From positions 1,674,001 to 1,738,000 of the forward strand of contig NZ_CAAHFH010000001.1 of NCBI RefSeq assembly GCF_900890705.1: a DNA stretch of 64,000 nt, in the 5' to 3' direction. Shown piece after piece: positions 25,544 to 41,149 of the stretch. The DNA is from Pontiella sulfatireligans (GTDB lineage: Bacteria > Verrucomicrobiota > Kiritimatiellia > Kiritimatiellales > Pontiellaceae). Each line of letters begins with the position of its first letter. Position 1 is the first letter of the stretch. The notes beneath the pieces were generated by a model. That model searched no databases. It was not told where the DNA came from and was given only the letters and a program-made list of their open reading frames with translations. The position numbers and the translations under genes are program-made.

Positions 25544-26512
25544 ATGAAAGCGACAGATAAGCCTAGATGGTACAAATGCGACGTACCGAAAAACGAAATG
25601 AAAGCACTCATGCAAAAGAGCGATGCCGTCGGTATTACGCACACCGCGCTTTATTTGACCCTGCTGATCGGGTTGGGAGTGCTCGCCTACCGCGCCATCG
25701 GCACTCCCTGGGTGATTCCGGCATTCTTTGCGTATGGCACCGTCTACTGTTTTTTCAACCACATGATGCACGAAACATTTCACGGTACGCCCTTCAAAAA
25801 TAAAAACCTGAACGGGTTCTGGTGCTGGGTCGCATCATTCTTTAACGGGGTGGAAATGGTGCACAACCGCTACGGACACATGCAGCACCACAATTTCACC
25901 TATTATGAAGAGGATGATCCGGAAATTGAAATCCAACGCCCCGTTTCCATCTGGAAAATGATTCCTAAGTTTTTTGCTGTCGGCCTTTTTAATCCGCTCC
26001 CCATTATCCGGCATGCGCTGGGCAATATCAGCGATGATGCCAAACAGATCGTTCCTAAAAATGAGTGGAATAAAATGATCTGGAGCTCCCGGCTTTGGTT
26101 GATTGGCCACGGATGTGTCATTGCATCCTGTTTTGTGTTCAACACATGGCTGCCGGTGGTTTACACCCTGTTCGCGCGTTTTTACGGCGCACCGCTGGGC
26201 CGCTCGCTTGATCTTATTCAGCATACCGGCATGGAAGTAAATGTGCGCGATCACCGACTCTGCTCACGCACCATCTACCTTAATCCGTTCACGCGTTTCC
26301 TGTACTGGAACATGAATTACCACATCGAGCACCACATGTTCCCGGCCATCCCGTTCCATGCCCTGCCAAAGCTGCATGAAAAAATCAAAGATCAGCTTCC
26401 GGAAACCCATCCCAGCTGGTTCGCGGCCTATCGCGAAATTATTCCGACCGTCCTTAAGCAGCAGAAAGATCCGAACTATTGCTTCACTCCCACCATCCCG
26501 GAGAAGGCGTAA
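25544..26512 (+). CDS. Membrane fatty-acid-desaturase-family diiron protein
   Basis: Protein of 322 residues; CAGGAG precedes ATG 25544. Four or so membrane helices and the three histidine boxes of the desaturase/hydroxylase family are present: HETFH (box 1), HMQHH (box 2) and HIEHH (box 3). Family members use O2 and two irons to desaturate or hydroxylate lipid chains or other hydrophobic substrates. Its stop overlaps the next start by one base (TAATG), coupling it to a sugar-isomerase-like gene rather than to lipid genes, so the substrate may not be a fatty acid. Confidence 0.8.
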   Translation: MKATDKPRWYKCDVPKNEMKALMQKSDAVGITHTALYLTLLIGLGVLAYRAIGTPWVIPAFFAYGTVYCFFNHMMHETFHGTPFKNKNLNGFWCWVASFFNGVEMVHNRYGHMQHHNFTYYEEDDPEIEIQRPVSIWKMIPKFFAVGLFNPLPIIRHALGNISDDAKQIVPKNEWNKMIWSSRLWLIGHGCVIASCFVFNTWLPVVYTLFARFYGAPLGRSLDLIQHTGMEVNVRDHRLCSRTIYLNPFTRFLYWNMNYHIEHHMFPAIPFHALPKLHEKIKDQLPETHPSWFAAYREIIPTVLKQQKDPNYCFTPTIPEKA

Positions 26513-27324
26513 TGGAAATTAAATTCTTCACCCCGCACTGGGGTTATGAACATCGGGATTTCAAAACGTATTGTCACGATGTCGCAAAAGCCGGCTTTGA
26601 CGGCATTGAGCTCAACCTCAGCACCGATCCAGCTGAGACAGTAGTGCAATTGGACCTGCTTAAAGAAAATGGACTCGAATACGTGGCTCAGCATTCCGGC
26701 ACATGCGCGCATGACTTTGAGGAACACAAAGCGCATTACCGCGAAAATCTTGAACGCATCACGGCACTCAAACCACAGAAACTGAATTGCCATACGGGAA
26801 TTGATTTCTTCACATTTGAGCAAAATCTGGAGATCGTCGACATTGCACTGGAGGTCGGCGCATCCTGTGGTGTTCCGATTGTGCATGAAACGCATAGGGG
26901 TCGCTTTCCGTATCACGCCGCTCTGACTTTCCAATATCTGGAAGCGCGGACGGAACTTCGGCTCACCGCGGATTTCTCCCATTGGTGTTGTGTTTCTGAA
27001 TCACTGTTGGAAGGACAGGAAGCATTCGTCGATATGGCCATAGAAAGGGCGGATCACATCCATTCCCGCGTTGGCTATGATCAGGGGCCGCAAATCAACG
27101 ATCCTCGTGCGCCTGAAAACGCATATATTGTTGAACGCTTTCTTAGTTGGTGGGACCGAATTGTTGAAATACACCAAGCCAAGGATTCAGAAACCCTAAC
27201 CATAACGACCGAGTTCGGCCCTTGGCCCTATACCGCTTCACTGCCCCTTACGCAGCAAGCGATTTCCAGCCAGTGGGACATCAATATTTATATGATGCAT
27301 CTATTGCGCAAGCGCTATCGATAG
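26512..27324 (+). CDS. Xylose-isomerase-like TIM-barrel sugar isomerase/epimerase
   Basis: Protein of 270 residues beginning MEIKFFTPHWGYEH at 26512, with GGAG just upstream inside the desaturase end. It shows the AP-endonuclease-2 / sugar phosphate isomerase pattern: AKAGFDGIELNL, LNCHTGIDFF, VPIVHETHRGR, LTADFSHWC and ITTEFGPWPY, where Glu, Asp, His and Glu normally bind the metal. It likely isomerises or epimerises a sugar or cyclitol. The 3' end overlaps the convergent AraC gene by 10 bp. Confidence 0.8.
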   Translation: MEIKFFTPHWGYEHRDFKTYCHDVAKAGFDGIELNLSTDPAETVVQLDLLKENGLEYVAQHSGTCAHDFEEHKAHYRENLERITALKPQKLNCHTGIDFFTFEQNLEIVDIALEVGASCGVPIVHETHRGRFPYHAALTFQYLEARTELRLTADFSHWCCVSESLLEGQEAFVDMAIERADHIHSRVGYDQGPQINDPRAPENAYIVERFLSWWDRIVEIHQAKDSETLTITTEFGPWPYTASLPLTQQAISSQWDINIYMMHLLRKRYR

Positions 27325-28325
27325 TCGCGCGGCGAGATGCCCATGATCTTTTTGAAGATCCGGGAAAAGTAGTATGGATCGGGGAAGCCGAGTTGCTCAC
27401 CCACTTCACTGATGCGCATTCCCGTTGTGGTCAACAGCTCGCAGGCACGCTGAATCTTGAGTCGATTGAAATAGTCGATCGGCGTGCTGTAGTAGCGCTT
27501 GCTGAAAAGCACGCCGTAGTGGTTCAGGCTCATGCCGGCAATGTTGGCCAGTTCCTTCAGGGGCAATTTGCGCGCAAGATTGCGGTGCATGAACTCGACG
27601 GTCTTGTCGATGTTTTCATCAGCGGTGCGGCTACGCTGTTCGGATGACCTCATGCGCAGCTGGATGACACCAAGCAGCTGGCTCAGTGCGCCGGTCGCGG
27701 CAACTAGCGTGGAGTAGGTATGTACCTTGCTCATGAACTGATAGAGCTGTTCAATGCAGGCAGCCATTTCCTGATGCTGTGGCAGATGTATGACCGGGCT
27801 TCCTGTAGAGGGAAAAACCAGCTCACAGAATTCCGCGGCCTGTTTCCCCTGGAAGTGCACCCAATGGTTGGACCATGGTTGCCCCGGATTGGCACCGTAT
27901 TTATGCGGAACGTGTGCGGGCACGAGAAAGGCGCTGTGTTTTTCCACCGTCCATTCATTACCATCGAGTTCGAGCCAGCCTTGTCCGTCGTCGCAATAGA
28001 TCAGGATATAGTCATAGCTTCCGATCGGTCGGGGTATGTAGTGCGCTGGCGACGCTCCCTGAAAACCGACGCGCGTGCAGAGCAGATCGCCCGTAATCGG
28101 CTTTTGCAGAAACTCATCGCGCAAAGCTGACGCAAGATGCGCCATACGCATATCCGGGAACGCGCCGCGCTGGGCACGGCGGATGTCAGGAAGAGGGATA
28201 TCCGAAAAATCCGAAAACTTAAGCCCTGCTTGTTTGAGCAGTTTGCTTACTTCTGTTTCACTCCTCTGTTGCATTGAGCTCTGATACATCGGGATATTGT
28301 CCATTATTTCCAAAATCCTGTCCAT
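27315..28325 (-). CDS. AraC-family transcriptional regulator
   Basis: Protein of up to 336 residues; ATG 28325 or ATG 28304 could start it, and neither has a strong ribosome site. An N-terminal cupin-like sensor (about 60-190) has the arabinose-binding pattern (VPAHVPHKYGANPGQPWSNHW). The C-terminal double HTH (about 235-336) is clear: LKELANIAGMSLNHYGVLF and ISEVGEQLGFPDPYYFSRIFKK, ending GISPRDYR. It is divergent from the glycyl radical gene with only about 56 bp between starts, so it probably controls that operon in response to its substrate. Confidence 0.9.
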   Translation of the reverse strand: MDRILEIMDNIPMYQSSMQQRSETEVSKLLKQAGLKFSDFSDIPLPDIRRAQRGAFPDMRMAHLASALRDEFLQKPITGDLLCTRVGFQGASPAHYIPRPIGSYDYILIYCDDGQGWLELDGNEWTVEKHSAFLVPAHVPHKYGANPGQPWSNHWVHFQGKQAAEFCELVFPSTGSPVIHLPQHQEMAACIEQLYQFMSKVHTYSTLVAATGALSQLLGVIQLRMRSSEQRSRTADENIDKTVEFMHRNLARKLPLKELANIAGMSLNHYGVLFSKRYYSTPIDYFNRLKIQRACELLTTTGMRISEVGEQLGFPDPYYFSRIFKKIMGISPRDYR

Positions 28326-28381: not shown

Positions 28382-30697
28382 ATGAAAACCTTTGACTATA
28401 CAGACACCGAGCGCATCTATGCGGCAGATCTGCACAACAGCAACTTTAAACCCAATAATCGCATCAAGCGACTGATTGATCGCCGCGACTGGCTGGCTAA
28501 AAACCATAAAAAAGATATCTACTGCGACAACGCGGAGTTCCTGATCTATCACTGGTCCGGGAAAGCGGAAACCTTTGCGGCGGCAACCGGTGAGCAGGCC
28601 GCTTCCGAAGACGAGCGCATCAATATCGGCGACCACACCGCGCGTGTCGATGTCGGCGGTCCGTTCCCGTATGCGGCGCAGATGCCTTCCAAGGTCAATG
28701 GCTATGAGCCGACCGTCACCAACTGGGCGGACGATTATGCCTTCTTCCTTCGTCACTCCGAAGCGGAGGTGCATCCATACGAGCAGATCGTCGGTGAATT
28801 TCACTGGCAGTTAGACGAAGCGCGCTACTACAAATATCCGAAATCCCACGCCGACTTGGGGCTGGTTGCCCGCGAATTGGGCGCCGGTGGATTTAGTCTA
28901 GCGCATTGCTGTCCGGATCTTTCCATCGGTCTTAAACTCGGCTGGGGTGGACTGCTGGAAAAAATTCGTAAAAACCGCAATAAGCATGCGACGTATGGTA
29001 ACGAAAAATCTGTGACCTATCTGGATGCCAGTGAACAGGTCGTTCTGTCTGTCATCGACTTTGTGCAGCGCCATGGCGAAAAGGCCGCTAAGCTGGCCGA
29101 AACCGAAATGGATCCGGTAAAAAAAGAGTCCTACGAACTCGTCGCGAAAAATTGCGCAAACATTTCCTATGAACCGCCGAAGACGTACCACGAGGCGTTG
29201 CAGTGGATTATGCTCTACATGATTGTAGAGCGCGTCAATGGGCACGGAAACGGCTATGGCCGTTTTGACCAGTTGCTGATACCGTTCTATAAGGCCGACA
29301 AAGCCGCAGGACGTATCGACCGCGAACGCGCTCGCGAACTGCTGGGAGAATGGTATTTAAAATATGGCCCTCATCTTTCGTATGGCGGACGGAACGAAGA
29401 TGGTTCCGATGCCACCAACGAAATGAGTTGGATCGGGCTGGAAGCCTACGATTTGGTCGGCGGATACAACCAATTTGGCGTACAATGGCACAAGGATATG
29501 GATCCAGACTTTTTTAAATATTCATGTGATGTCGTCGGCCGTCATGGCTGCGGGGTGCCAGCGCTCGTCAACTCCGATGTCCTCGTTGCCAGCCAGTTGC
29601 GTACCGGTTTCGATGAAAAGCATGCGATGAACACGTCGTACAGCGGATGCCAGTGGTACTGTATTCCGGGCCGCGAATATCAGGATCAGGATGTAAACTG
29701 TATTGTCCTCATCTCTCCGATGCAACGCGCTATCGATATGGCCATTGAACAGGGCATTGAAGGGTGGGACGGCTTCTGGAACCTCTACTGTGAAGAGGTG
29801 GATAAAAGCGGCGAAGCCTTAGTGAATTTTAAAAACGAAGCGTACAAATATCACGCTCAACTGTGGCCGGAAATGATCACCTCGTTGGTTTCTTATGGCC
29901 CAATTGAAAAAGGGCGCGACATTACCGACTTTGATTCCGTGGACTATAACTATCCGTCTGTAAATGTTCTGGGCGTTCCGAACGTGGTGGATTCCATGTA
30001 TGCGCTGAAAAAGGCCGTGTTCGAAGACAGGAAGTTTTCGCTCAAGCAGGTTCGCGATGCCTGCGAATGCGACTGGACTGGCGAAGGCGAGGAAATTATA
30101 CGCCAGGTGTTGTTGAATCTTCCAAAGTTTGGAAATGACGAGGATGGCGTCGATGCCATGGCCATACAGATCTCTGAACAGGTCCGTGAAGTTATGGAAG
30201 CGAAGCGCAGCATTAAGGGCGGCCACTTCCGTACATCGCTTTTCCAATATCAGGGACACACGGTCGCGGGGCCATACCTTGGCGCAACACCGGATGGCCG
30301 TAAACGCAAGGAACCACTCGCACACGGCATGAACCCGATGCATGGCCGCAATCGTGCCGGCATGACCGCCACGGCAAATTCCTTCTGCAAGCTGGACTTT
30401 GCCAAGTATCAGGGCGGTTCGTTCCAAATAGAGTTGCATCCGAGCTATTTCGCGGAAGATGCCGACCGTGGTGAGCTGGTCGATCAGTTTGCTCAGACGT
30501 TCTTTGAAAAAGGCGGCGTGCAGATCAATCTGAACGTTTTCGATCTGGAAGATCTAAAGGATGCCTATGACCATCCGGAGAAAGATGAATACGACGATAT
30601 CGTTGTGAAAGTTACTGGCTATTCTGCCCACTTCACCAAGATGGATCGTCAGTTCCAGAAGGAATTCATCACCCGCGTGAACTACAAGTCATTGTAA
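28382..30697 (+). CDS. Glycyl radical enzyme of unassigned subfamily
   Basis: Protein of 771 residues (GAGGAT before ATG 28382) with the pyruvate-formate-lyase / dehydratase fold. The C-terminal radical motif is VKVTGYSAHF (Gly746). The active-site loop reads SGCQWYCIPGREY: Cys423 is followed by Gln424 and Trp425, not by the Cys-x-Glu found in glycerol, propanediol, choline and hydroxyproline enzymes, nor by the Cys-Cys of pyruvate formate-lyase; a second Cys sits at 427. The reaction cannot be assigned. Neighbouring activase, sugar porter, isomerase and URO-D-fold genes suggest a sugar-, polyol- or methoxylated-polyol-type substrate (inference). Confidence 0.85.
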   Translation: MKTFDYTDTERIYAADLHNSNFKPNNRIKRLIDRRDWLAKNHKKDIYCDNAEFLIYHWSGKAETFAAATGEQAASEDERINIGDHTARVDVGGPFPYAAQMPSKVNGYEPTVTNWADDYAFFLRHSEAEVHPYEQIVGEFHWQLDEARYYKYPKSHADLGLVARELGAGGFSLAHCCPDLSIGLKLGWGGLLEKIRKNRNKHATYGNEKSVTYLDASEQVVLSVIDFVQRHGEKAAKLAETEMDPVKKESYELVAKNCANISYEPPKTYHEALQWIMLYMIVERVNGHGNGYGRFDQLLIPFYKADKAAGRIDRERARELLGEWYLKYGPHLSYGGRNEDGSDATNEMSWIGLEAYDLVGGYNQFGVQWHKDMDPDFFKYSCDVVGRHGCGVPALVNSDVLVASQLRTGFDEKHAMNTSYSGCQWYCIPGREYQDQDVNCIVLISPMQRAIDMAIEQGIEGWDGFWNLYCEEVDKSGEALVNFKNEAYKYHAQLWPEMITSLVSYGPIEKGRDITDFDSVDYNYPSVNVLGVPNVVDSMYALKKAVFEDRKFSLKQVRDACECDWTGEGEEIIRQVLLNLPKFGNDEDGVDAMAIQISEQVREVMEAKRSIKGGHFRTSLFQYQGHTVAGPYLGATPDGRKRKEPLAHGMNPMHGRNRAGMTATANSFCKLDFAKYQGGSFQIELHPSYFAEDADRGELVDQFAQTFFEKGGVQINLNVFDLEDLKDAYDHPEKDEYDDIVVKVTGYSAHFTKMDRQFQKEFITRVNYKSL

Positions 30698-30764: not shown

Positions 30765-31685
30765 ATGAGTAAACAGGGCCATACATTTAGCGTAAAACGG
30801 ATGCAGACGCATGATGGGCCGGGGCTGCGCACCACGGTCTTTATGAAAGGCTGTTCACTGCGCTGTGCCTGGTGCCACAATCCGGAAAGCCTTTCCGGCA
30901 AGGCGGAGCTTTGGCGTAATGAACCGCGCTGCATTGGTTGCGGCATCTGTGCGCTGGATGATGGCTCGCTTACGGATCATGATAATTGGAACGGCGATCC
31001 GGCCGTCATTGAAAACTGTCCCGCCAAGGCACTGGAGCCGTTGCGGAAGGATTGGTCGGTGGAAGCATTGCTGGCCGATCTGGAACGCGATGCCGCGTTT
31101 TTTACTAAAAACGGAGGCATCACGGTTAGTGGCGGTGAACCCGCAATGCAGTGGCCGTTTGTGGCTGAGTTGCTGAAAGGCTGTCGGGAGCGGGAGTGGC
31201 ATACGGCGCTTGATACCTGTGGCGCCGCTCCGGCTGAAGCACTCGATGTACTGTTGCCGCTTTGCGACCTCGTGCTGTTTGACCTCAAGATCATGAATTC
31301 TTCCAATCATAGGAAGTGGACCGGGCAGGGGAATGAGCAGATTCTGGATAATTTTTGCAAAACCATGGCCTACGCCACAGAACATCCAGAATTAAAGATA
31401 TGGATCCGAACGCCGCTGATTCCCGGTGCCACCGATGGTACAGAAAATATTGAGGCGATTGGGCATTTTCTTTCCAATCATTGGACGGATCAGATCGAGC
31501 GCTGGGATCTCTGTGCCTTTAATAATCTGGCCGTTGAAAAATACCAAAAAATGAATATGGAGTGGGAATTTGCTGAAACACCGCTCATGGAACGGAAGCA
31601 TGGAGAAGAGTTGCTCCAAACCGCTATCGGAGCCCTCGGACCGGAAAAATACGACCGGGTTTATTTAAAAGGACGTATGATATGA
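30765..31685 (+). CDS. Glycyl radical enzyme activase (radical SAM)
   Basis: Protein of 306 residues. The radical-SAM cluster motif CSLRCAWC is at residues 30-37 (C30, C34, C37). An inserted ferredoxin-like segment has only C56, C59, C62 and C85, i.e. ligands for one auxiliary cluster, whereas most activases of this group carry two. SAM-binding glycines are in ITVSGGEPAMQ, and LDTCGAAP is conserved. It generates the glycyl radical on the enzyme encoded directly upstream. The next gene starts within its stop (ATGA). Confidence 0.9.
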   Translation: MSKQGHTFSVKRMQTHDGPGLRTTVFMKGCSLRCAWCHNPESLSGKAELWRNEPRCIGCGICALDDGSLTDHDNWNGDPAVIENCPAKALEPLRKDWSVEALLADLERDAAFFTKNGGITVSGGEPAMQWPFVAELLKGCREREWHTALDTCGAAPAEALDVLLPLCDLVLFDLKIMNSSNHRKWTGQGNEQILDNFCKTMAYATEHPELKIWIRTPLIPGATDGTENIEAIGHFLSNHWTDQIERWDLCAFNNLAVEKYQKMNMEWEFAETPLMERKHGEELLQTAIGALGPEKYDRVYLKGRMI

Positions 31686-32050
31686 AGATTTTTTTGATTG
31701 TGTTGGTGGCGGCGATTTCGAACATCGGAACCGTTCTCTGTTTAAAAAAGGCCAAGTTTGCCTTGGTTAGCGGTTGTCCCGCAACGGGCTGGCTGGCCGG
31801 GATTGCTCTGACCATTGTGACGACTCAATATCTGATGTGCTGGGCGGATGTGTGGGGGGCGTCGTTGGGATTCGTTATGTCCTTCATCATTGTTCTGGTG
31901 ATGCTGTCCGCTGTACTGGTGAATGTGCAGGTGCCTTCCGGACGGTTAGAGCTGTTGTCGCCCGCAGGGCTTCCGGTGCTTGAATCAATCGGCTATGGCC
32001 TCGCCGTTGTCGGTATTTTTTTGGTCGGGATTTCCAAAAACCTGGCCTGA
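31682..32050 (+). CDS. Small four-helix membrane protein
   Basis: Protein of 122 residues overlapping the activase stop by four bases. Four hydrophobic helices are visible (MKIFLIVLVAAISNIGTVL; WLAGIALTIVTTQYLMCW; LGFVMSFIIVLVMLSAVLV; IGYGLAVVGIFLVGI). Length and topology resemble half-size transporters of the drug/metabolite superfamily, but key SMR residues such as the early Glu are not evident. Its coupling to the radical-enzyme genes suggests a substrate or product transport or accessory role. Function not assigned. Confidence 0.6.
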   Translation: MKIFLIVLVAAISNIGTVLCLKKAKFALVSGCPATGWLAGIALTIVTTQYLMCWADVWGASLGFVMSFIIVLVMLSAVLVNVQVPSGRLELLSPAGLPVLESIGYGLAVVGIFLVGISKNLA

Positions 32051-32176: not shown

Positions 32177-33583
32177 ATGGAAAGTAAGACGGAAAGCGGT
32201 TCAATGGGATATTTGTGGTTTATCTGCCTCGTGGCAGCCTGTGGCGGATTACTGTTTGGCTACGACGCTGTGGTGGTGTCCGGGACGAACTCGCAAGTTA
32301 CAGCTCTGTTTGATTTCAGCCCGAGGCAACTGGGCTTCTATGTCAGTTGTGTTCTTTGGGGTTGCGCCATCGGATCGGCCTTTGCCGGACCGATCTCCGA
32401 CGCCTTCGGTCGTAAGAAAACACTAATGATCGCTGCGATCATGATCTTTATTTCCGCCACCTGGAGTGGACTTTCCGACGGTCCGGCGCATCTGATCATG
32501 GCACGCCTGTTGGGCGGTTTTGGGATTGGTGCCTCCACGATGGTCTGCCCGCTCTATATCTCCGAAATCTCCCCCGAAAAACACCGCGGTCGTATGGTGA
32601 CACTGTTCCAGTTCACCATCACCATCGGAATCGTGATGTGTGTCTTTTCCAACTTTGGGATTATTAAATTTGCCGAAGCCAATGCCGCCTCTGAAACGCT
32701 CGCCCCCTTCTGGAAATGGTTTGCAGTCGATCAAAGCTGGCGTGCCATGTATTTCGCCGAAGCCCTGCCAGGCATTCTTTTCCTCGTCTGCGCTTTCTTC
32801 ATTCCTGAAAGCCCTCGCTGGCTGGTTAAAAATCAGCGGACGGACGAAGCGAAAAAAATTCTAAAACGCATCAACGGGGATAAAAAGGCTGCGGCGGTCT
32901 GCGCGGAAATCGAAACCGCGGTAAACGAAGAAAGCGACGTCCGTTTCTTTGATCTCTTTACCCGCAAGCTGAGCAGGCCACTGATTCTCTGCCTGTTGCT
33001 TTGCTTCTTTGCCGAAGCCTGCGGAGTTTCGGTGGTTTTCTACTACGGTCCGCAGATCTTCGAAGCGGCAGGCTTCAGTCTGGCCGGATCGCTCGGAGGC
33101 TTCGGCACCATTGCTCTGGTAAACATGGTCGCCACCATCTTTGCCTTAATGTTTGTTGATACCGCCGGCCGCCGAAAACTACTCGCCGTCGGCACCATCG
33201 GAGGAGTCATTGCCCATCTTGTTATCGGCAGCCTCTTCCTTAAGGGTGCTACCGGATGGGCCATCGTAGTCGCGATCAATGCCTTTGTGGCTTTCTTTGC
33301 CTGCGCCATCGGCCCGGTCAAGTTTATACTGATTTCGGAAGTCTTTCCGAACCGCATCCGCGGGAAGGCGATTTCCATCGCCACGGTCTGCATCTGGCTG
33401 ACCAGTGCTGGAGTGGCCCAGCTTTTCCCAATCATGCAGGACGCCATGCCGACCGGTTTTATTTTCTACTGCTTTGCCGGCGTGCTGGCTCTCTCCCTGT
33501 TTGTCATTAAGTTCCTTATGCCCGAAACCAAAGGACGCACCATTGAAGAAATCGAGCGTTCCTGGCTCAAACACGAGGACTAG
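32177..33583 (+). CDS. MFS sugar/H+ symporter (sugar porter family)
   Basis: Protein of 468 residues with 12 membrane helices; GAAGG lies upstream of the ATG. Signatures of the sugar porter family are present: [14 protein letters not shown] in helix 1, DAFGRKKT in loop 2-3, [31 protein letters not shown] and the C-terminal [12 protein letters not shown]. It imports a monosaccharide or cyclitol by proton symport. Position between the radical-enzyme genes and the URO-D-like gene suggests that it feeds that pathway. Confidence 0.9.
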
Positions 33584-33586
33584 ACC

Positions 33587-34885
33587 ATGCTGCACGATCC
33601 CAGCCACTACACCCCCATGGCAACCGACGAGAAGATCGAGGTTTCCTCAACCGACCGCGATACCCTGCGCGGCCTCGCGGAACAGAAGGCCGCTGCCGGA
33701 ACCGAATCCTCGCAAAAGGAAAAGGCTCGCCTGTGGACGGCTCTCAACGACTTAAAGTCCGAGCGTCCCATGGTTTGGATCAATGAGATCCCCTGGAATG
33801 AAATGGACGTCAATGACGAGCTGAAGCTCCAGTGTGAGGGTGGGTGGGCGCGTGAGCAGGAAGTGCTGCTGCGCAAGGAACTCTACCAGTGGAACCACCT
33901 GCCTGCCGACATGGTCGTGAGCCCATGGATCGAGTGCCCGAAGGCGGTTCACAGCACCGACTTCGGCATTGTTGAAGATACCAATATCTCTGAAACCGAT
34001 CATTCCAACGATGTGGTTTCCCGCCACTTCAACATCCAGATTGAAGAACTGGCCGATATTGAAAAGATCCAGATGCCGGTTGTTACCCACAATGAGGAGC
34101 AGACCGCACTGCGCGAGCAGATCTTCAACGACGTGTTCGGCGGCATCCTTCCGGTGAGGGTGGTTGGGCAAAGCCACATTTGGTTTACGCCTTGGGACTT
34201 CCTGATCCGCTGGACGGGTATCGAAAATGCGCTGATCGGCCTTTATGACGATCCCGATCTCTACCACGCCATCGTCAACCGCCTTGTCGGTGCCTGGATG
34301 GTGGAGCTCGACCAGTTTGATGAACTCAACGTGCTAGAACTCGACAATTCCAACGTACGCGTCGGCTCCGGCGGCTATGGATATATCTCCAAACTTCCAA
34401 GCCTTGGGAATGCACAAACACACGTGACGCCCAAAGACATGTGGGGCTGTTCCAACGCGCAGATATTCTCGGAAGTTTCTCCCGACATGCACTGGGAATT
34501 TGCGATCGAGCATGAGCTGCGCTGGATGGAGCGCTGGGGCATGAACTACTACGGCTGCTGCGAACCGCTGCACAACAAGACCGAGATCCTAAAGAAGATC
34601 CCCAATCTTCGAAAGGTCTCCACCAGTGCCTGGTGCGATGTCGAAAAAATCACCGAGGGCCTAGGTCAAGACATGGTCTACAGCATCAAACCCAGCCCGG
34701 CCATTCTCGCGGGGGACGACTGGCATCCCGAACGCGCCCGCGCCGAAATCCGCCGTGTGCTGGACATCGCCCAAGGTGCGCATCTGGAATTCATCATGAA
34801 AGACATCTCCACCGTGCGCTACAAACCTGAGCGCCTCTGGGAATGGTCCGCAATCGCGATGGAAGAAGTCGGAAAACCCAAATAA
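33587..34885 (+). CDS. Uroporphyrinogen-decarboxylase-fold (URO-D/MtaA-like) protein
   Basis: Protein of 432 residues; GAGGA lies eight bases before the ATG, inside the porter's end. The C-terminal two thirds match the URO-D superfamily, which includes true decarboxylases and Zn-dependent methyltransferases (MtaA/CmuA). The segment WGMNYYGCCEPLHNK corresponds to the metal-binding region and STSAWCDVEKI follows. Heme function is unlikely here. A methyl-transfer or demethylation role fits a cluster with a porter and a radical enzyme, but this is inference. Confidence 0.75.
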   Translation: MLHDPSHYTPMATDEKIEVSSTDRDTLRGLAEQKAAAGTESSQKEKARLWTALNDLKSERPMVWINEIPWNEMDVNDELKLQCEGGWAREQEVLLRKELYQWNHLPADMVVSPWIECPKAVHSTDFGIVEDTNISETDHSNDVVSRHFNIQIEELADIEKIQMPVVTHNEEQTALREQIFNDVFGGILPVRVVGQSHIWFTPWDFLIRWTGIENALIGLYDDPDLYHAIVNRLVGAWMVELDQFDELNVLELDNSNVRVGSGGYGYISKLPSLGNAQTHVTPKDMWGCSNAQIFSEVSPDMHWEFAIEHELRWMERWGMNYYGCCEPLHNKTEILKKIPNLRKVSTSAWCDVEKITEGLGQDMVYSIKPSPAILAGDDWHPERARAEIRRVLDIAQGAHLEFIMKDISTVRYKPERLWEWSAIAMEEVGKPK

Positions 34886-35074: not shown

Positions 35075-35683
35075 ATGTCAACTAGAGGATTAATCGGATT
35101 CAGGTGCAACGACACCGACAAGCTCATTTACAACCACGCAGACTCTCATCCGGATACACTCGGGCTAAAGGTTCTGCGGGAACTAAGAGAAGTTGATAAC
35201 TGGAACGTAATTTTGGACCGCATAGAAAGTCTCGTTCCAATTCCTGAACAGCGAAAACTGGGCGAACATTCAAGCATGGCGGAAGCAGAGATTCGAAGAG
35301 CGTTTCCCGATCTTGAGTACAGGGGTTCTCCTCAGAATTTTTATGATCTCTATCAACCGCTGCAGGGCACATTGAAACCCTACTTGGACGGAAAACTAAT
35401 GTTCATGCCGGACGCATCGGATTTCATACACAACAGCCTCCATTGCGAGCGGGCGTACATCGCCAACCTAGATGACAAAAAATTTGAGGTATGGAAAGGA
35501 CTCCAGAGCGAACCGGACTCAGAAAATGAGCGCTATCCTCAAGAAGCTGCCCGCACCGGATATTATCTCTGCACCATGTTGAGATCCTATGATTTGGAAA
35601 AACTTCCCGAGCAAGGAACCTACCTGTCGGACTACTTTTTCTTCAGGGATCTTACCTCATCGCGACCAGAGGACAGACCATGA
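35075..35683 (+). CDS. Conserved hypothetical protein, tandem paralog 1
   Basis: Protein of 202 residues beginning MSTRGLIGFRCNDTDKLIYN. It shares with the next gene the blocks RGLIGFR/QGLIGFR, D-KL-YN, LG-LKVL-EL, FPDLEY, LQGTL-PYLDGKL, FMPDASDFI, HCE-AYI-NLD and FEVWKG. N-terminal 'TRG.IGF' proteins of this size occur in many bacteria without known function; an Ntn-like fold could be suspected from the beginning, but nothing proves it. No signal peptide or membrane segment. The preceding 188 bp after the URO-D gene holds a short GC hairpin (AACGCC/GGCGTT) but no clear terminator. Confidence 0.7.
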   Translation: MSTRGLIGFRCNDTDKLIYNHADSHPDTLGLKVLRELREVDNWNVILDRIESLVPIPEQRKLGEHSSMAEAEIRRAFPDLEYRGSPQNFYDLYQPLQGTLKPYLDGKLMFMPDASDFIHNSLHCERAYIANLDDKKFEVWKGLQSEPDSENERYPQEAARTGYYLCTMLRSYDLEKLPEQGTYLSDYFFFRDLTSSRPEDRP

Positions 35684-36300
35684 GCGATCAAGGTTTGATC
35701 GGGTTCCGATACCGCGACATTGATAAACTCGACTACAACCGTTCCGGTTCTGCGCCGAATAAACTCGGCCTCCAGATCCTTCACGAACTACGGGCAGTCG
35801 ATGACTGGGATCCTTTCAAAAAGCGAATAGCAGAACTCACTCCGGTGGCTGAGACGCATAGAATTGACTATTTCGACGGCTATCCTGTCGCCGAAATACG
35901 AAGGCATTTTCCTCATCTGGAATACGACAGCGCACCGACCGACTACCATGAATTATTTGCGCCGTTGCAGGGCACACTGGCCCCCTACCTCGACGGTAAG
36001 CTCAGCTTCATGCCGGACGCATCCGATTTCATTCGAGACAGTCAGCATTGTGAATGGGCCTACATTACCAATCTTGACACCAATCAATTTGAAGTTTGGA
36101 AAGGGAACCAGCTCGAACCCGACCACGAGGACAACCGAATGGTTGAAGAAGATAACCGCTACGGTAAGGATATGGATCGCATGGGTTACTATCCATGCGC
36201 CATGGTTAGAAGCTACGACTTTGAAGAACTTCCCAACCCCGGACTCTTTCTAACGTATTATTCCTTCTCAGGGGATCTTACCGACGGAAACAGAGAGTAG
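35680..36300 (+). CDS. Conserved hypothetical protein, tandem paralog 2
   Basis: Protein of 206 residues whose ATG overlaps the TGA of the preceding paralog (ATGA), so they are translationally coupled. It has the same architecture and about 50% identity by eye (MSDQGLIGFRYRDIDKL; LQGTLAPYLDGKL; FMPDASDFIRDSQHCEWAYI). The Thr-Arg after Ser2 in paralog 1 is Asp-Gln here, so if the N-terminus were catalytic the two copies would differ. Two retained, coupled copies suggest a hetero-oligomer. The following 36301-36543 holds nothing I can identify. Confidence 0.7.
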   Translation: MSDQGLIGFRYRDIDKLDYNRSGSAPNKLGLQILHELRAVDDWDPFKKRIAELTPVAETHRIDYFDGYPVAEIRRHFPHLEYDSAPTDYHELFAPLQGTLAPYLDGKLSFMPDASDFIRDSQHCEWAYITNLDTNQFEVWKGNQLEPDHEDNRMVEEDNRYGKDMDRMGYYPCAMVRSYDFEELPNPGLFLTYYSFSGDLTDGNRE

Positions 36301-36711: not shown

Positions 36712-37029
36712 CTATTTCTTGGCCCGTACGTAGCGCCGGTTGAGGAACTTCTCGATGTCGCTGCGGTAGAAGCGACGTAGCCCCCCAACCCGGATGTGAG
36801 GGATCTCCCACCGCCAAAGCGTGCTCAGCGAGATACCAAGCCAGTCGCATACCTCGCGGGCGCTCAGCAGATTATCCAAAGAAACCTCAGCGCATCGTTC
36901 CCACTCTTGCAGTGCATAGAACGCCCGATCTATTGCTTCGTCGTCATGTCCAGCCGCACGCAAGAGTGTTCGCGCTGCCGACAGGTTCGGGTCGTCCAAT
37001 ATCTGAATATCCATCGCGTCGGCTTTCAC
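36712..37029 (-). CDS. HTH (MerR/excisionase-type) DNA-binding protein
   Basis: Protein of 105 residues. I chose GTG 37029 because AGGAG lies seven bases upstream and the GTG overlaps the TGA of the primase gene (GTGA). The C-terminal half is a winged HTH of the excisionase kind: LLSAREVCDWLGISLSTLWRW, then HIRVGGLRRFYRSDIEKFL. It is the last gene of the operon and sits directly beside the attachment site, which fits a recombination directionality factor or a repressor. No integrase is found next to it. Confidence 0.75.
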   Translation of the reverse strand: MKADAMDIQILDDPNLSAARTLLRAAGHDDEAIDRAFYALQEWERCAEVSLDNLLSAREVCDWLGISLSTLWRWEIPHIRVGGLRRFYRSDIEKFLNRRYVRAKK

Positions 37030-38018
37030 TGTGGCACTCCTACGGAATGACTCACCTTGAGCGGGCACGACGAATCACAGAACGGCATAACAGCAGGATC
37101 CTCGCATCCCATGCCGCGATAGCTCCCCTTATACGCACAATGTGCCTGGGCATGGATTTCAGAATCCCGGATAATAGGCTTACCCGAATTAGGGCGATTT
37201 CGGCGGGCCCAGGCATTCAGGATTCCAAGTGCTTGGCCATAAGCATAGCCGGCCAGCTTCAACTGCACCGCCAGACGGAAGCAGGCAACGCGTTGGTAGT
37301 CGGTGACTCCCTCGGCGAGCATCCTTTCCGCACAGGGCTTCAGCCCATACTTCCTACCATCGGCAACTGTCCGCAGGTTGACAGATGCAGTGCGAGTGGA
37401 ATAGGACGGCTCCTTCCTCGCGATATGGAGCAGAGCATTTCGGGACACTGGCTGAATACTTGCCAGCACAGCCCATTGATCCTCAAAAGGCTTCATGTGT
37501 TCGTTCAGGAACGCCGTACGCCCCTGCAAAACATGCCGCCCAAAAAGAGGCAGGTTGATGAAATTGCCATACTGTTTCCGCGTAAGAAGACGATCCTGCT
37601 TAGGAAATATCTCCGTCGATGGCGCGCCGATCTTTTGCAGCAAGACCCGCATGGCGATGCGCATCAGCCGGGCCTCTACACCGCCATCTTCGGCAAACCA
37701 CCAGCAATGATATCCCTTGGACTTGCTGCGCTCAATATAGGTGCTAATGCCAGCATCCAGGGAAACTGAACGGAAAGCCGTCGGCATACCTTTGTCGTGC
37801 GAGTCGAAGTCCACCACAGCAAAAAAAACTTTCTCGCCGACAAGCGGATAAACGCCTAACGGCTGAACACCGGAAAGATGACGGTTGGCAACATCAATGG
37901 TCACCGGCTTCTTCACCTGCCAGCTTCGTCCGCTTTCGGAGTCATACGTTCCGTACACGTCCGTACGACCGGCGAAGCGGCTGCCAAAAAGCTCAACTTG
38001 TTTCTGCGTAAAGTGCAT
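37026..38018 (-). CDS. Archaeo-eukaryotic-type (AEP) primase-like protein
   Basis: Protein of 330 residues; AAAGGAT lies upstream of the ATG. The AEP pattern is visible: FFAVVDFDSHDK supplies the metal-binding DxD (Asp70, Asp72), then SKSKGYHCWWFAEDG, matching the 'S..G.H.W.F' motif, and EIFPKQDRL with YGNFINLPLFG. A C-terminal region with C..(9)..C...C (MGCEDPAVMPFCDSSCPLK) may bind metal or FeS. It could make primers for element replication or act in an AEP-based defence pathway. Fourth from the end of a compact operon. Confidence 0.7.
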   Translation of the reverse strand: MHFTQKQVELFGSRFAGRTDVYGTYDSESGRSWQVKKPVTIDVANRHLSGVQPLGVYPLVGEKVFFAVVDFDSHDKGMPTAFRSVSLDAGISTYIERSKSKGYHCWWFAEDGGVEARLMRIAMRVLLQKIGAPSTEIFPKQDRLLTRKQYGNFINLPLFGRHVLQGRTAFLNEHMKPFEDQWAVLASIQPVSRNALLHIARKEPSYSTRTASVNLRTVADGRKYGLKPCAERMLAEGVTDYQRVACFRLAVQLKLAGYAYGQALGILNAWARRNRPNSGKPIIRDSEIHAQAHCAYKGSYRGMGCEDPAVMPFCDSSCPLKVSHSVGVPQ

Positions 38019-38091
38019 TCCAGCAACTATCCTTTCGATGCAAACGATGTTCAGAAGATGAATCTCTTCACAAGGATAGCGGCAGATGCGA

Positions 38092-38694
38092 TCAGGTCAT
38101 TTCAGATAGAGTCAAAGCCCCCGGCATTTCTTCAGCCGCCCAATGACTTTGTAGTAAAGCGGCAACATGATTCGCGAGGGCATGCAGTTCCAGTCCCGAA
38201 AACACCGCAACGTCGCCGAACTCATATCGGGATTGGATTTCCTCTGCGAGCTGCATTCTGGAATTCCAATCGAGTCCATGGAGAAAGCTATCCAGAACAC
38301 ACGACGTATGTCGGGCCAGCACTTGCTCCTTCAGTGCTTCCGCGAGCCATTGAAGAATTGTACTGATTTCGGTGGCACCGTCTTCAAGGACTTCAATGAT
38401 CGCCAATGCATATCCTCCCATGGATTTCTGGGAATAGGCGCTCTCCAGAACATCAACACTTAATGCGTAAGCCTCAGAATCCGAAATGCGTTGGGAAGGT
38501 ATCATTCCGTTCTGGAACAGGTGGCGTGTGAAGCGGATGATCTCGGATTCAAATTCAGCCAATGATGCCGGGGCATCTGCGGCCGGCACGTAGTCGGCGG
38601 CGGCATCATCAAATCCACACACGCAAGCCGCTCCGGCCAGATCAATTTCCAGACGGTGCAAAATTGAGGCAGGACTTGCGTTAGCATTCTTCAT
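38092..38694 (-). CDS. Hypothetical acidic, helix-rich protein
   Basis: Protein of 200 residues; ATG 38694 follows AGGAGG at nine bases and overlaps the end of the ATPase gene by 14 bp. No family recognised. The sequence is rich in Glu, Leu and Ala, with predicted helices (LAEFESEIIRFTRHLF; STILQWLAEALKEQVLARH). One Cys pair (ACVCGF) lies near the N-terminus. Tight overlap suggests that it works with the ATPase, perhaps as an adaptor (inference). Confidence 0.6.
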   Translation of the reverse strand: MKNANASPASILHRLEIDLAGAACVCGFDDAAADYVPAADAPASLAEFESEIIRFTRHLFQNGMIPSQRISDSEAYALSVDVLESAYSQKSMGGYALAIIEVLEDGATEISTILQWLAEALKEQVLARHTSCVLDSFLHGLDWNSRMQLAEEIQSRYEFGDVAVFSGLELHALANHVAALLQSHWAAEEMPGALTLSEMT

Positions 38695-41149
38695 AGGCCA
38701 GATCCTCCTCACTGAAGCTCCACCCCATCTCATCGGCGGATAAATCCCTGAACGGAGAGTTCCATCGCTCGGAGCGCCGGGCCAGGCCTTTCCGAACGGC
38801 ATCGACCGGCAAACAGTAGTTCCGATGTGTATTTTCCAGAATCGACCCTACATCCCCTCCCTCGACTTCAGGGGGTGGCCTGGTTACCATTCGCACGACC
38901 TCCTTTCCGATCCTTGCAATCATCTCATACTTTTCCAGCTTCATGATTTCCTTCGGATCAACAAGATCCTGCATGTCTTTTGCAAAGAATTGGCTATCTC
39001 GCTTATCGACTTTCCCCAGGATTGTAGTCCCTGCGGTAGACAAAGCGTCCACCTGGCGCGTGCCGAACTGGGACAGATACTGGTGAGCCAGACAAAGGTT
39101 GATCCCGAACTTGCGCGCCTGGACAATGATGTTTTCTATGGCATTCGCGGCAACAAACCGATGTGCCTCATCCGCAAAGATCGAAAACCGTTTTCGTTGA
39201 TCTATTGGAGTATCGCTGCGGCCCATGGCCGCGTTAAGAAACAGGGAAAGAATGAGGGCTCCGAGAATCTCCCCCGCGTCATTGCCCACGGACGACAGGT
39301 CGACGAGAAGAATCATGCCCTCATCCATAATCCGTCGGAAACTGATACGGTTCTCGGGCTGTGAAAGCATGAGCGACACATTTCCGGCGGCCACCAGCTT
39401 CGACAGCTTGTGCTTGGGGGCCTGCAGATCCGATTTGCGATAGTCCTTCAGGAAATCCTGCTGCCAGAATTTTTTGACGGGTTCGTCCAAGGCGGCCTCC
39501 ACGATCATCTGCCTCAACTCTTCGCTTTCCGGACTTCCCTGCCGAACGAGGCTGTAGAGATCAAGAAGCGATGCGTGCTTCAGATATGACAGCCCAATGA
39601 GCCCGTTCCTTATGACATGCTCCAACCGATCACCCCAATCCGAAAACACCCGCCGGAGGGCTCCAACTATGTCGTCTGCCCTTCTGTAGATATTTTCTCC
39701 CGGATCCAGAGTCAACGGATTCCACAGTGGAACAAAATTTGGATCACCGGGATTTAAATAGATGGTACGAGAGCGTAGCCCTTCCGGAATGATGGTCAGG
39801 GCCTGCTTAACAGCATCCCCGTGAATATCGATGAACACGGCCCCGCTACCCTCTTCAATGTCCTGGCGGAACATGTTTAGCAAGACCGTGCTCTTCCCCA
39901 TCCCTGCTGAGGAAAGAATATGGGTGCTGCGGGAGCGGACATCTTCAGGGATGCAAACAGGCTGGATCTCACCAGCATAAGGACTGTCGCCGATATGCGT
40001 CCCGTTGTGGAGAGATTTATCCCTGACCGGCAACGTCTCCAGCGCGGCAAGGGGGAGTCGGCGCTGCTCGACGAGCTTTGCGTGAAACGGATGGGCCAGC
40101 CCGACAAGCTCGCGGGAATTCACAAGAAAGCCTGGCCGGTAAACCGTTCCCCGCTGAATCATCCGAATCAAGTCCGAGTCTCTGAACATTTTCCGGTACT
40201 CCCCATCTCCTATTTGGCGCAACGGCCGTCCTCCGTGTTGATAAAGGTTCATGAAGGCCGTCAAGGCTTGCAACGATGGCGGTGGATGAGGCTTTTCGGT
40301 AATCATACCAACTCTTGCCGCCGCATTGAAGAAAGGGCGGTCATTGTGGGCTTTCAGTTCGACATCGCTTGCCATGTTCCGGAGATCGCCTGAAGGAGCC
40401 TGCTGCATGTAGCGCCGTCCTAGGCTGTAGAGTCCATGAAGATTGATTTCATATTCCAGATCCAGCAAGCGCTTCACATTTCGATGCCAGTCGTTGGTCG
40501 CTGCGACCGGCTGGAATACACACTGGTAGAAGCCTATGTCGGCGTCGGGAACTTGCGACAACGCTTGGACAAGGGACATAAACGCCGGTGAATTCAGTTC
40601 CTCGTACGATGTCAGCAAATGGGAGTACGGCGGATCAGGATAGTAGTCTGCCAGATAGACGCGCGTATCCCGCCCCCAATCGACACGTTCCAGTCGCGGC
40701 TCACGATCGACCGTGACCTCAGAGCATTCAAACAGCCCACGAAATATGGTAGTAAGCACATAGGCATCTGCTCGATGCACAAGCAGGCCAATGGTGATGG
40801 ACTGGATATTTCCGGAAATTTCAAATGCGACACGGTGGGACAGGCCGGCCATGGATTTCAACAGAGTCTCAGACCGGGTCCAGTCGCATTTCTGGTCAGG
40901 CGACACCCAGATGCGCAACCGAAGCCACTCACCGGGTTCAGTGGGCACTTCTGGAATCGCCGCTGCCTGTTCAGCATCATCCTCCACACCGAACAGCGCG
41001 TAGCGTGGCTCCAACCGCACGGGTTCCCTCTCTATCCTGGGCGAACAGCCTTTGGCTATTTCCATCGACAAGAGGGCCATGAGCTTTTTCGCCGCCATCC
41101 TCGGAGCGGCGCGCTCCAGTCTCACCTGATCTATCGTAGCAATCTGCAT
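38681..41149 (-). CDS. VirD4/TraG/HerA-like DNA-translocating ATPase
   Basis: Protein of 822 residues. The N-terminal half (1-380) is unassigned, without an obvious membrane anchor. The ATPase core runs from about residue 395: the P-loop reads LSSAGMGKST (Lys419), with Ser where Gly/Ala is usual at the first position, followed by VFIDIHGDAVKQ. Walker B is MILLVDLSS, and FADEAHRFVA, ARKFGINLCLAHQYLSQ complete the coupling-protein/HerA pattern. It could move DNA in conjugation, pump DNA, or act as the motor of a defence complex. No relaxase or VirB genes are seen nearby. Confidence 0.8.
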   Translation of the reverse strand: MQIATIDQVRLERAAPRMAAKKLMALLSMEIAKGCSPRIEREPVRLEPRYALFGVEDDAEQAAAIPEVPTEPGEWLRLRIWVSPDQKCDWTRSETLLKSMAGLSHRVAFEISGNIQSITIGLLVHRADAYVLTTIFRGLFECSEVTVDREPRLERVDWGRDTRVYLADYYPDPPYSHLLTSYEELNSPAFMSLVQALSQVPDADIGFYQCVFQPVAATNDWHRNVKRLLDLEYEINLHGLYSLGRRYMQQAPSGDLRNMASDVELKAHNDRPFFNAAARVGMITEKPHPPPSLQALTAFMNLYQHGGRPLRQIGDGEYRKMFRDSDLIRMIQRGTVYRPGFLVNSRELVGLAHPFHAKLVEQRRLPLAALETLPVRDKSLHNGTHIGDSPYAGEIQPVCIPEDVRSRSTHILSSAGMGKSTVLLNMFRQDIEEGSGAVFIDIHGDAVKQALTIIPEGLRSRTIYLNPGDPNFVPLWNPLTLDPGENIYRRADDIVGALRRVFSDWGDRLEHVIRNGLIGLSYLKHASLLDLYSLVRQGSPESEELRQMIVEAALDEPVKKFWQQDFLKDYRKSDLQAPKHKLSKLVAAGNVSLMLSQPENRISFRRIMDEGMILLVDLSSVGNDAGEILGALILSLFLNAAMGRSDTPIDQRKRFSIFADEAHRFVAANAIENIIVQARKFGINLCLAHQYLSQFGTRQVDALSTAGTTILGKVDKRDSQFFAKDMQDLVDPKEIMKLEKYEMIARIGKEVVRMVTRPPPEVEGGDVGSILENTHRNYCLPVDAVRKGLARRSERWNSPFRDLSADEMGWSFSEEDLAYEEC

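Follow-up and report, generated by a model that had tools for sequence, protein, structure and literature searches.

Which reaction does a glycyl radical enzyme (GRE) catalyse once the Glu of its active-site motif has been replaced by Trp? GRE eliminases and decarboxylases (glycerol dehydratase (GDH), HypD, CutC, HpsG, IAD and HPAD) carry a Glu two residues past the active-site Cys (C+2), giving the motif Cys-x-Glu (C-x-E). Within the window, the 64,000-nucleotide stretch of Pontiella sulfatireligans DNA analysed here, translation and alignment of one GRE gene revealed no Glu at this position and Trp425 in its place (Table 1). An earlier note on this DNA, made from the letters alone, had described the motif as Cys423-Gln-Trp-Tyr-Cys, and its motif, gene coordinates and residue number proved correct. 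The full loop reads YSG-C423-Q424-W425-Y426-C427-IPGREY. The Cys-Cys pair of formate lyases, also reported missing, is absent at the motif, which has GCQW where PflB has ACCV; a Cys176-Cys177 pair is present away from the active-site motif.

Table 1. Features of the GRE locus (positions in the window)
Feature	Position	Strand	Basis
Xylose-isomerase-like TIM barrel, probable keto-sugar isomerase/epimerase	26509..27324	+	Orthologue over Pfam cut-off; fold; beside GRE in 5 loci
AraC-family regulator, divergent, 56 bp from GRE	27315..28325	-	AraC_binding and HTH_18
GRE, CQW subfamily, 771 aa (P0001)	28382..30697	+	Pfam PFL-like 6.7e-89, Gly_radical 1.6e-18; AlphaFold2 model
His175 codon (= GDH His164), invariant in C-x-W clade	28904..28906	+	Alignment
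Active-site Cys loop YSGC423QW425YCIPGRE432Y	29639..29680	+	Translation; Trp425 on GDH Glu435
Glu432 codon, C+9 position, invariant in 47/47 C-x-W GREs; candidate relocated base	29675..29677	+	Alignment
Asp437 codon (= GDH Asp447), invariant in C-x-W clade	29690..29692	+	Alignment
Gly746 codon, predicted glycyl radical site (KVTGYSAHF)	30617..30619	+	Translation; aligned with GDH Gly763
Radical SAM GRE activating enzyme, 306 aa	30765..31685	+	TIGR02494 254.5 bits, cut-off 174.35
Small hydrophobic protein, 122 aa, kept in both Pontiella operons	31682..32050	+	No Pfam match
Sugar porter family MFS transporter	32177..33583	+	TIGR00879 358.8 bits, cut-off 237.8
432-aa protein, family not recognised, 3 bp past porter; absent from P. 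agarivorans copy	33587..34885	+	No Pfam or PDB match

Pfam, alignment and an AlphaFold2 model (built on 24 relatives; mean pLDDT 89.1, pTM 0.90) agree that the window protein has the features of the superfamily, namely a C-terminal Gly radical loop (KVTG746YSAHF), an active-site Cys as thiyl residue and the GRE barrel fold. The best fold matches of the model were 1,2-propanediol dehydratase, glycerol dehydratase (1r8w, 5i2a and 9rco for these two dehydratases) and PflD, at a TM-score of ~0.8 and 21–23% identity, and the closest solved structures by sequence were 8id0 (E = 6e-65) and 5i2a (9e-65). Against the curated NCBIfam GRE models, the protein scored far below every cut-off (TIGR01774, 321.3 versus 678.2; best equivalog, 242.7 versus 1109).

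Alignment with HypD, GDH, CutC, YbiW, PflD and PflB placed GDH His164, Cys433, Glu435, Asp447 and Gly763 on window His175, Cys423, Trp425, Asp437 and Gly746, respectively. The dehydratases thus share the radical sites with the window GRE, as well as His164 and Asp447, the leaving-group pair of eliminases, and the C+2 Glu is the only one of the aligned catalytic residues to have been lost, which bears out the earlier claim that the Glu base is missing. HypD (trans-4-hydroxy-L-proline dehydratase, 6vxc) has the GRE eliminase fold in common with the window protein, in which the His160 equivalent is kept; however, Glu436 of HypD (number 456 in the tagged chain) aligns with Trp425, and the window protein reaches 242 bits against a HypD cut-off of 1100. 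Both Glu436 and His160 are essential in HypD (PMC7077986). The PflD/YbiW 1,5-anhydrohexitol-6-phosphate enzymes (8id0, 8id7), which include the closest solved relative by sequence, are GREs that act on a sugar-like ring, but they keep C-x-E, and their substrates are phosphorylated and imported by a PTS (PMC12441222). PflB belongs to the same superfamily, undergoes radical SAM activation and likewise has no C+2 Glu, but differs in its CC motif.

We next consider how widely the substitution is shared. All C-x-W GREs (29 CQW and 18 C[HNQ]W proteins) lay on one side of a single branch of an 85-row tree with an SH-aLRT support of 99, and each of the two groups had a support of 100; a tree built without six long rows and without the columns of the motif and the radical loop gave 98 for C-x-W, 100 for CQW and 100 for C[HNQ]W (short tree searches, support by SH-aLRT). 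None of the reference GREs compared (HypD, GDH, CutC, YbiW, PflD and PflB) fell inside the C-x-W clade, so among these references no characterised subfamily with the same motif groups with the window protein. Together with the scores below all NCBIfam GRE cut-offs, this supports the earlier view that its reaction is unassigned. The implied rarity of the motif, in contrast, was wrong, as C-x-W defines a whole clade. The CQW branch alone occurs in Verrucomicrobiota, Planctomycetota, Bacteroidota, Chlorobiota, Spirochaetota, Chloroflexota, Bacillota and WS1, and searches that started from the protein or from an alignment of three sequences returned relatives from Treponema and other spirochaetes, Phycisphaerales and Victivallales. 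The 24 CQW proteins scanned all matched only those GRE models that are common to the whole superfamily. In the sampled genomes the CQW branch is rare, at 3/388 in a phylum sample, 3/247 in a Bacteroidota order and 1/198 in a Planctomycetota class, each count taking in its starting genome; the motif census had the CQW motif itself among its search patterns, a bias from which the protein-based searches are free. At the level of sequence, the C-x-W proteins form a well-separated, multi-phylum clade with no characterised member among those compared and a conserved replacement of the catalytic Glu. In the open-access full texts searched, neither a C-x-W GRE nor any GRE that uses L-fucose or methyl sugars was described, and an earlier description may exist outside them.

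In the alignment, all 47 clade members had Trp at C+2, whereas no C-x-E or PFL-type row did, which argues that Trp425 is no chance change. Cys423, Gly746, His175 and Asp437 were invariant across the clade, and Glu432, Glu497, Phe621, Asn651, Gln682, Asn716 and Thr745 were invariant in the 47 proteins while rare or absent in C-x-E enzymes, with Arg284 nearly so; given these co-fixed residues, the Trp425 change belongs to a wider remodelling of the active site. The CQW branch adds His288, Asn290, Tyr292, Arg337, Trp369, Cys427, Arg617 and others. The sister clade C[HNQ]W (L036-L044, L088-L091, L094, L100, L103 and L104), with ~30% identity to CQW, resembles it in having Trp at C+2, Glu432, Asp437, Glu497 and Thr745, an activase, and TIM isomerase and Gfo/Idh neighbours, and is likewise uncharacterised. 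At L047-L056 and L105-L112, C[HNQ]W GREs sit among TIM isomerases, Gfo/Idh/MocA dehydrogenases and UxaE-like or cupin isomerase proteins, which makes up a second uncharacterised sugar-type GRE context. As a separate observation, a CQW-like GRE split by a TGA or frame change was found at L087, L093 and L115 of one genome (G449) from the order to which the Lachnospiraceae locus L079 belongs, and may represent a decaying or misassembled gene.

The window operon consists of the TIM-barrel gene, the divergent AraC regulator, the GRE, its activase, the small hydrophobic protein and the sugar porter, and the same gene order recurs in P. agarivorans, whose GRE orthologue is 85% identical. In nearly all CQW loci the GRE gene has a linked activase gene, and in most it has an AraC cluster beside it. 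Of the neighbours named in the earlier note, the porter is confirmed by its family model and the isomerase is likely, given an orthologue over the Pfam cut-off and a xylose-isomerase-like fold; the model of the TIM barrel (pLDDT 78) resembles IolE, the 3-keto-glucoside 4-epimerase YcjR and D-allulose 3-epimerase. The proposed URO-D-fold neighbour, the protein 3 bp past the porter, gave no Pfam match, to URO-D or any other profile, at E ≤ 0.01 and none in the PDB, so its sequence does not support the URO-D assignment or the argument built on it for the window gene. True URO-D proteins lie near the GREs of two relatives (L064 and L067).

Sugar genes around the relatives point to a substrate class. 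Markers of the L-fucose/L-rhamnose type (FucP, FucI, GH29, GH95, RhaT, L-fucose mutarotase and DUF5703) were found at 16/29 CQW loci versus 0/17 sister-clade loci (p = 8e-5, a value that is only indicative because the loci are not independent and the taxa differ). The methylated or deoxy sugar suggested earlier therefore stands as a family-level lead, through these 6-deoxy-L-hexose genes, but not at the window locus, where, as at its nearest relative L045, no fucose-type marker was present; a cyclitol substrate, the other suggestion, gained no support in this analysis. At L057, an L-fucose mutarotase-like gene (7byu, 2.4e-27) overlaps the GRE gene. A right-handed beta-helix protein with a fused L-rhamnose/L-fucose mutarotase domain (L076, 7888-9960) lies just upstream of another GRE and overlaps its start, the C-terminal mutarotase domain being its sole PDB match, and a homologous beta-helix/mutarotase pair occurs at L079 (8200). 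A mutarotase beside the GRE speaks for a substrate that is a reducing sugar in free form; because PF05336 is present in 62/247 genomes of the Bacteroidota order, a mutarotase at the genome level is weak evidence, and only operon position counts. FucI lies near the GRE in three loci and exceeds its curated cut-off in L073, as does FucP in L059 and L081; RhaT is encoded in L058, and GH29 enzymes accompany porphyranases in L063. For the GH29 from L062, the closest relatives are an alpha-L-fucosidase and an exo-alpha-L-galactosidase, which makes L-galactose and L-fucose equally compatible substrates. Several operons of marine Bacteroidota (L062, 13275-14255; L065, L067 and L074) contain a PhyH-type 2OG oxygenase alongside the O2-sensitive GRE, perhaps catalysing an aerobic counterpart or partner reaction.

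We propose, with a probability of roughly 0.4 for the combined statement, that the window gene encodes a GRE with an eliminase reaction, whose substrate is a free sugar of L-galacto configuration. Taken singly, the sugar class has the odds slightly in its favour, and C–O elimination falls a little short of even odds; we assume an eliminase because of the relatives, which keep the Glu. The substrate, bond cleaved, residue roles and pathway order that we infer are as follows. The adjacent radical SAM enzyme would activate Gly746, from which the radical would pass to Cys423, and Cys423 would abstract a C-H hydrogen from free, unphosphorylated L-fucose or L-galactose or from a corresponding O-methyl ether. 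The resulting sugar radical would lose a beta oxygen substituent, with His175 and Asp437 handling the leaving group and Trp425 lining the sugar pocket. Judging from conservation, one of the clade-invariant acids, Glu432 or Glu497, may take over the base role of the lost C+2 Glu. A deoxy-keto product would then go to the TIM-barrel isomerase, whose modelled likeness to keto-sugar epimerases and isomerases fits a keto-sugar product from the GRE. In other bacteria, genes for fucose-type sugars are frequent neighbours of related GREs, so the O2-sensitive enzyme probably opens a new pathway by which such sugars are degraded anaerobically. The loci of bacteria from the sea, termite guts and mammalian guts suggest that the sugars are of the L-fucose type and come from fucoidan, porphyran or plant polysaccharides.

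Growth of Pontiella strains bears on the substrate. The GRE is present in P. sulfatireligans (F21) and P. agarivorans NLcol2 (G027) and absent from a third genome (G005), which is probably that of P. desulfatans F1. F1 and F21 grow on L-fucose and L-rhamnose, and NLcol2 on neither (PMC10880615, PMC7356697). We therefore rejected a requirement of the GRE for L-fucose growth in Pontiella: P. agarivorans carries the gene and does not grow, and P. desulfatans grows with a likely genome that is without it, so that, in this genus, the GRE does not suffice for growth on L-fucose and such growth can do without it.

The best surviving alternative, unlikely but a live rival rather than the lead, is an O-methyl-sugar lyase, in which an O-methylated L-sugar, for instance 2-O-methyl-L-fucose, would release methanol (or lose formaldehyde), Trp425 would form a methyl pocket and PhyH would be the aerobic counterpart. 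The oxygenases in the four GRE operons mentioned above are in line with this, as is the distribution of GH139 2-O-methyl-L-fucosidases, of which five are reported in F21 and none in F1 (PMC7356697). DUF5703 (PF18961) gave five strong matches in the window genome (C1:1092188, 1213817, 1222264 and 1315798; C2:2234880), none in G005 and two in NLcol2, and these matching counts, on which the equation of the two families depends, suggest that DUF5703 corresponds to GH139. DUF5703 also adjoins the GRE in L064 and L065, and both Pontiella GRE carriers fall among the 10/97 relatives that have DUF5703 (p about 0.01, hypergeometric), although they are only two and not independent. In the Bacteroidota order the link was not reproduced, as just 1/3 GRE carriers has DUF5703 against a base rate of 16/247 genomes.

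A radical epimerase or isomerase is less probable still. Here Cys423 would take a hydrogen from a sugar carbon and Cys427 return one on the opposite face, with no need for an acid/base Glu; the loss of the base fits such a non-elimination reaction, most CQW loci are without a recognised dedicated kinase or aldolase, and Cys427 is invariant in 29/29 CQW proteins, whereas the sister clade almost always has Ser or Ala there and C-x-E GREs seldom have a Cys. However, we know of no GRE epimerase, the eliminase leaving-group pair His175 and Asp437 is kept, and several loci already have a separate TIM epimerase/isomerase. That the C-x-W enzymes perform a new GRE chemistry, in which free reducing sugars react without help from the C-x-Glu base, be it methanol elimination from O-methyl sugars or Cys423/Cys427 epimerisation, is a possibility we hold tentatively; if true, it would give anaerobes a kinase-independent entry into the catabolism of fucose- and galactose-type sugars.

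Cleavage of a C–C bond in a keto-sugar, in the manner of pyruvate formate-lyase, is improbable: the Glu is absent, a second Cys near the first loosely recalls the PFL Cys pair and the FucI genes near three GREs could supply L-fuculose, but the window GRE lies outside the PFL clade, lacks the CC motif and context of PflB and scores 113.8 with TIGR01255 against a cut-off of 994. An ordinary C-x-E eliminase with a misread motif, or a degenerate inactive copy, has nothing in its favour beyond the missing Glu and is scarcely credible, being already contradicted by conservation, with an open frame that is 85% identical to the P. agarivorans copy, a motif fixed in 47 sequences from many phyla, and Cys423, Gly746 and the activase all kept.

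The Cys-x-Glu motif serves the prediction of GRE chemistry, and the C-x-W branch shows that this rule misses part of the family. A monophyletic branch across many phyla, with a fixed Trp and co-fixed residues, implies a reaction type or base placement that is missing from the GRE catalogue.

Beyond the operon, the window contains two tandem paralogues of ~200 aa (35075-36300), of which the one scanned had no Pfam match. On the minus strand, a further gene group (36712-41149) encodes an HTH_17 excisionase-like protein, a TOTE-type archaeo-eukaryotic primase (AEP-TOTE, 2.1e-33) and a type IV coupling-protein-like ATPase, which suggests an integrated mobile element beside the operon.
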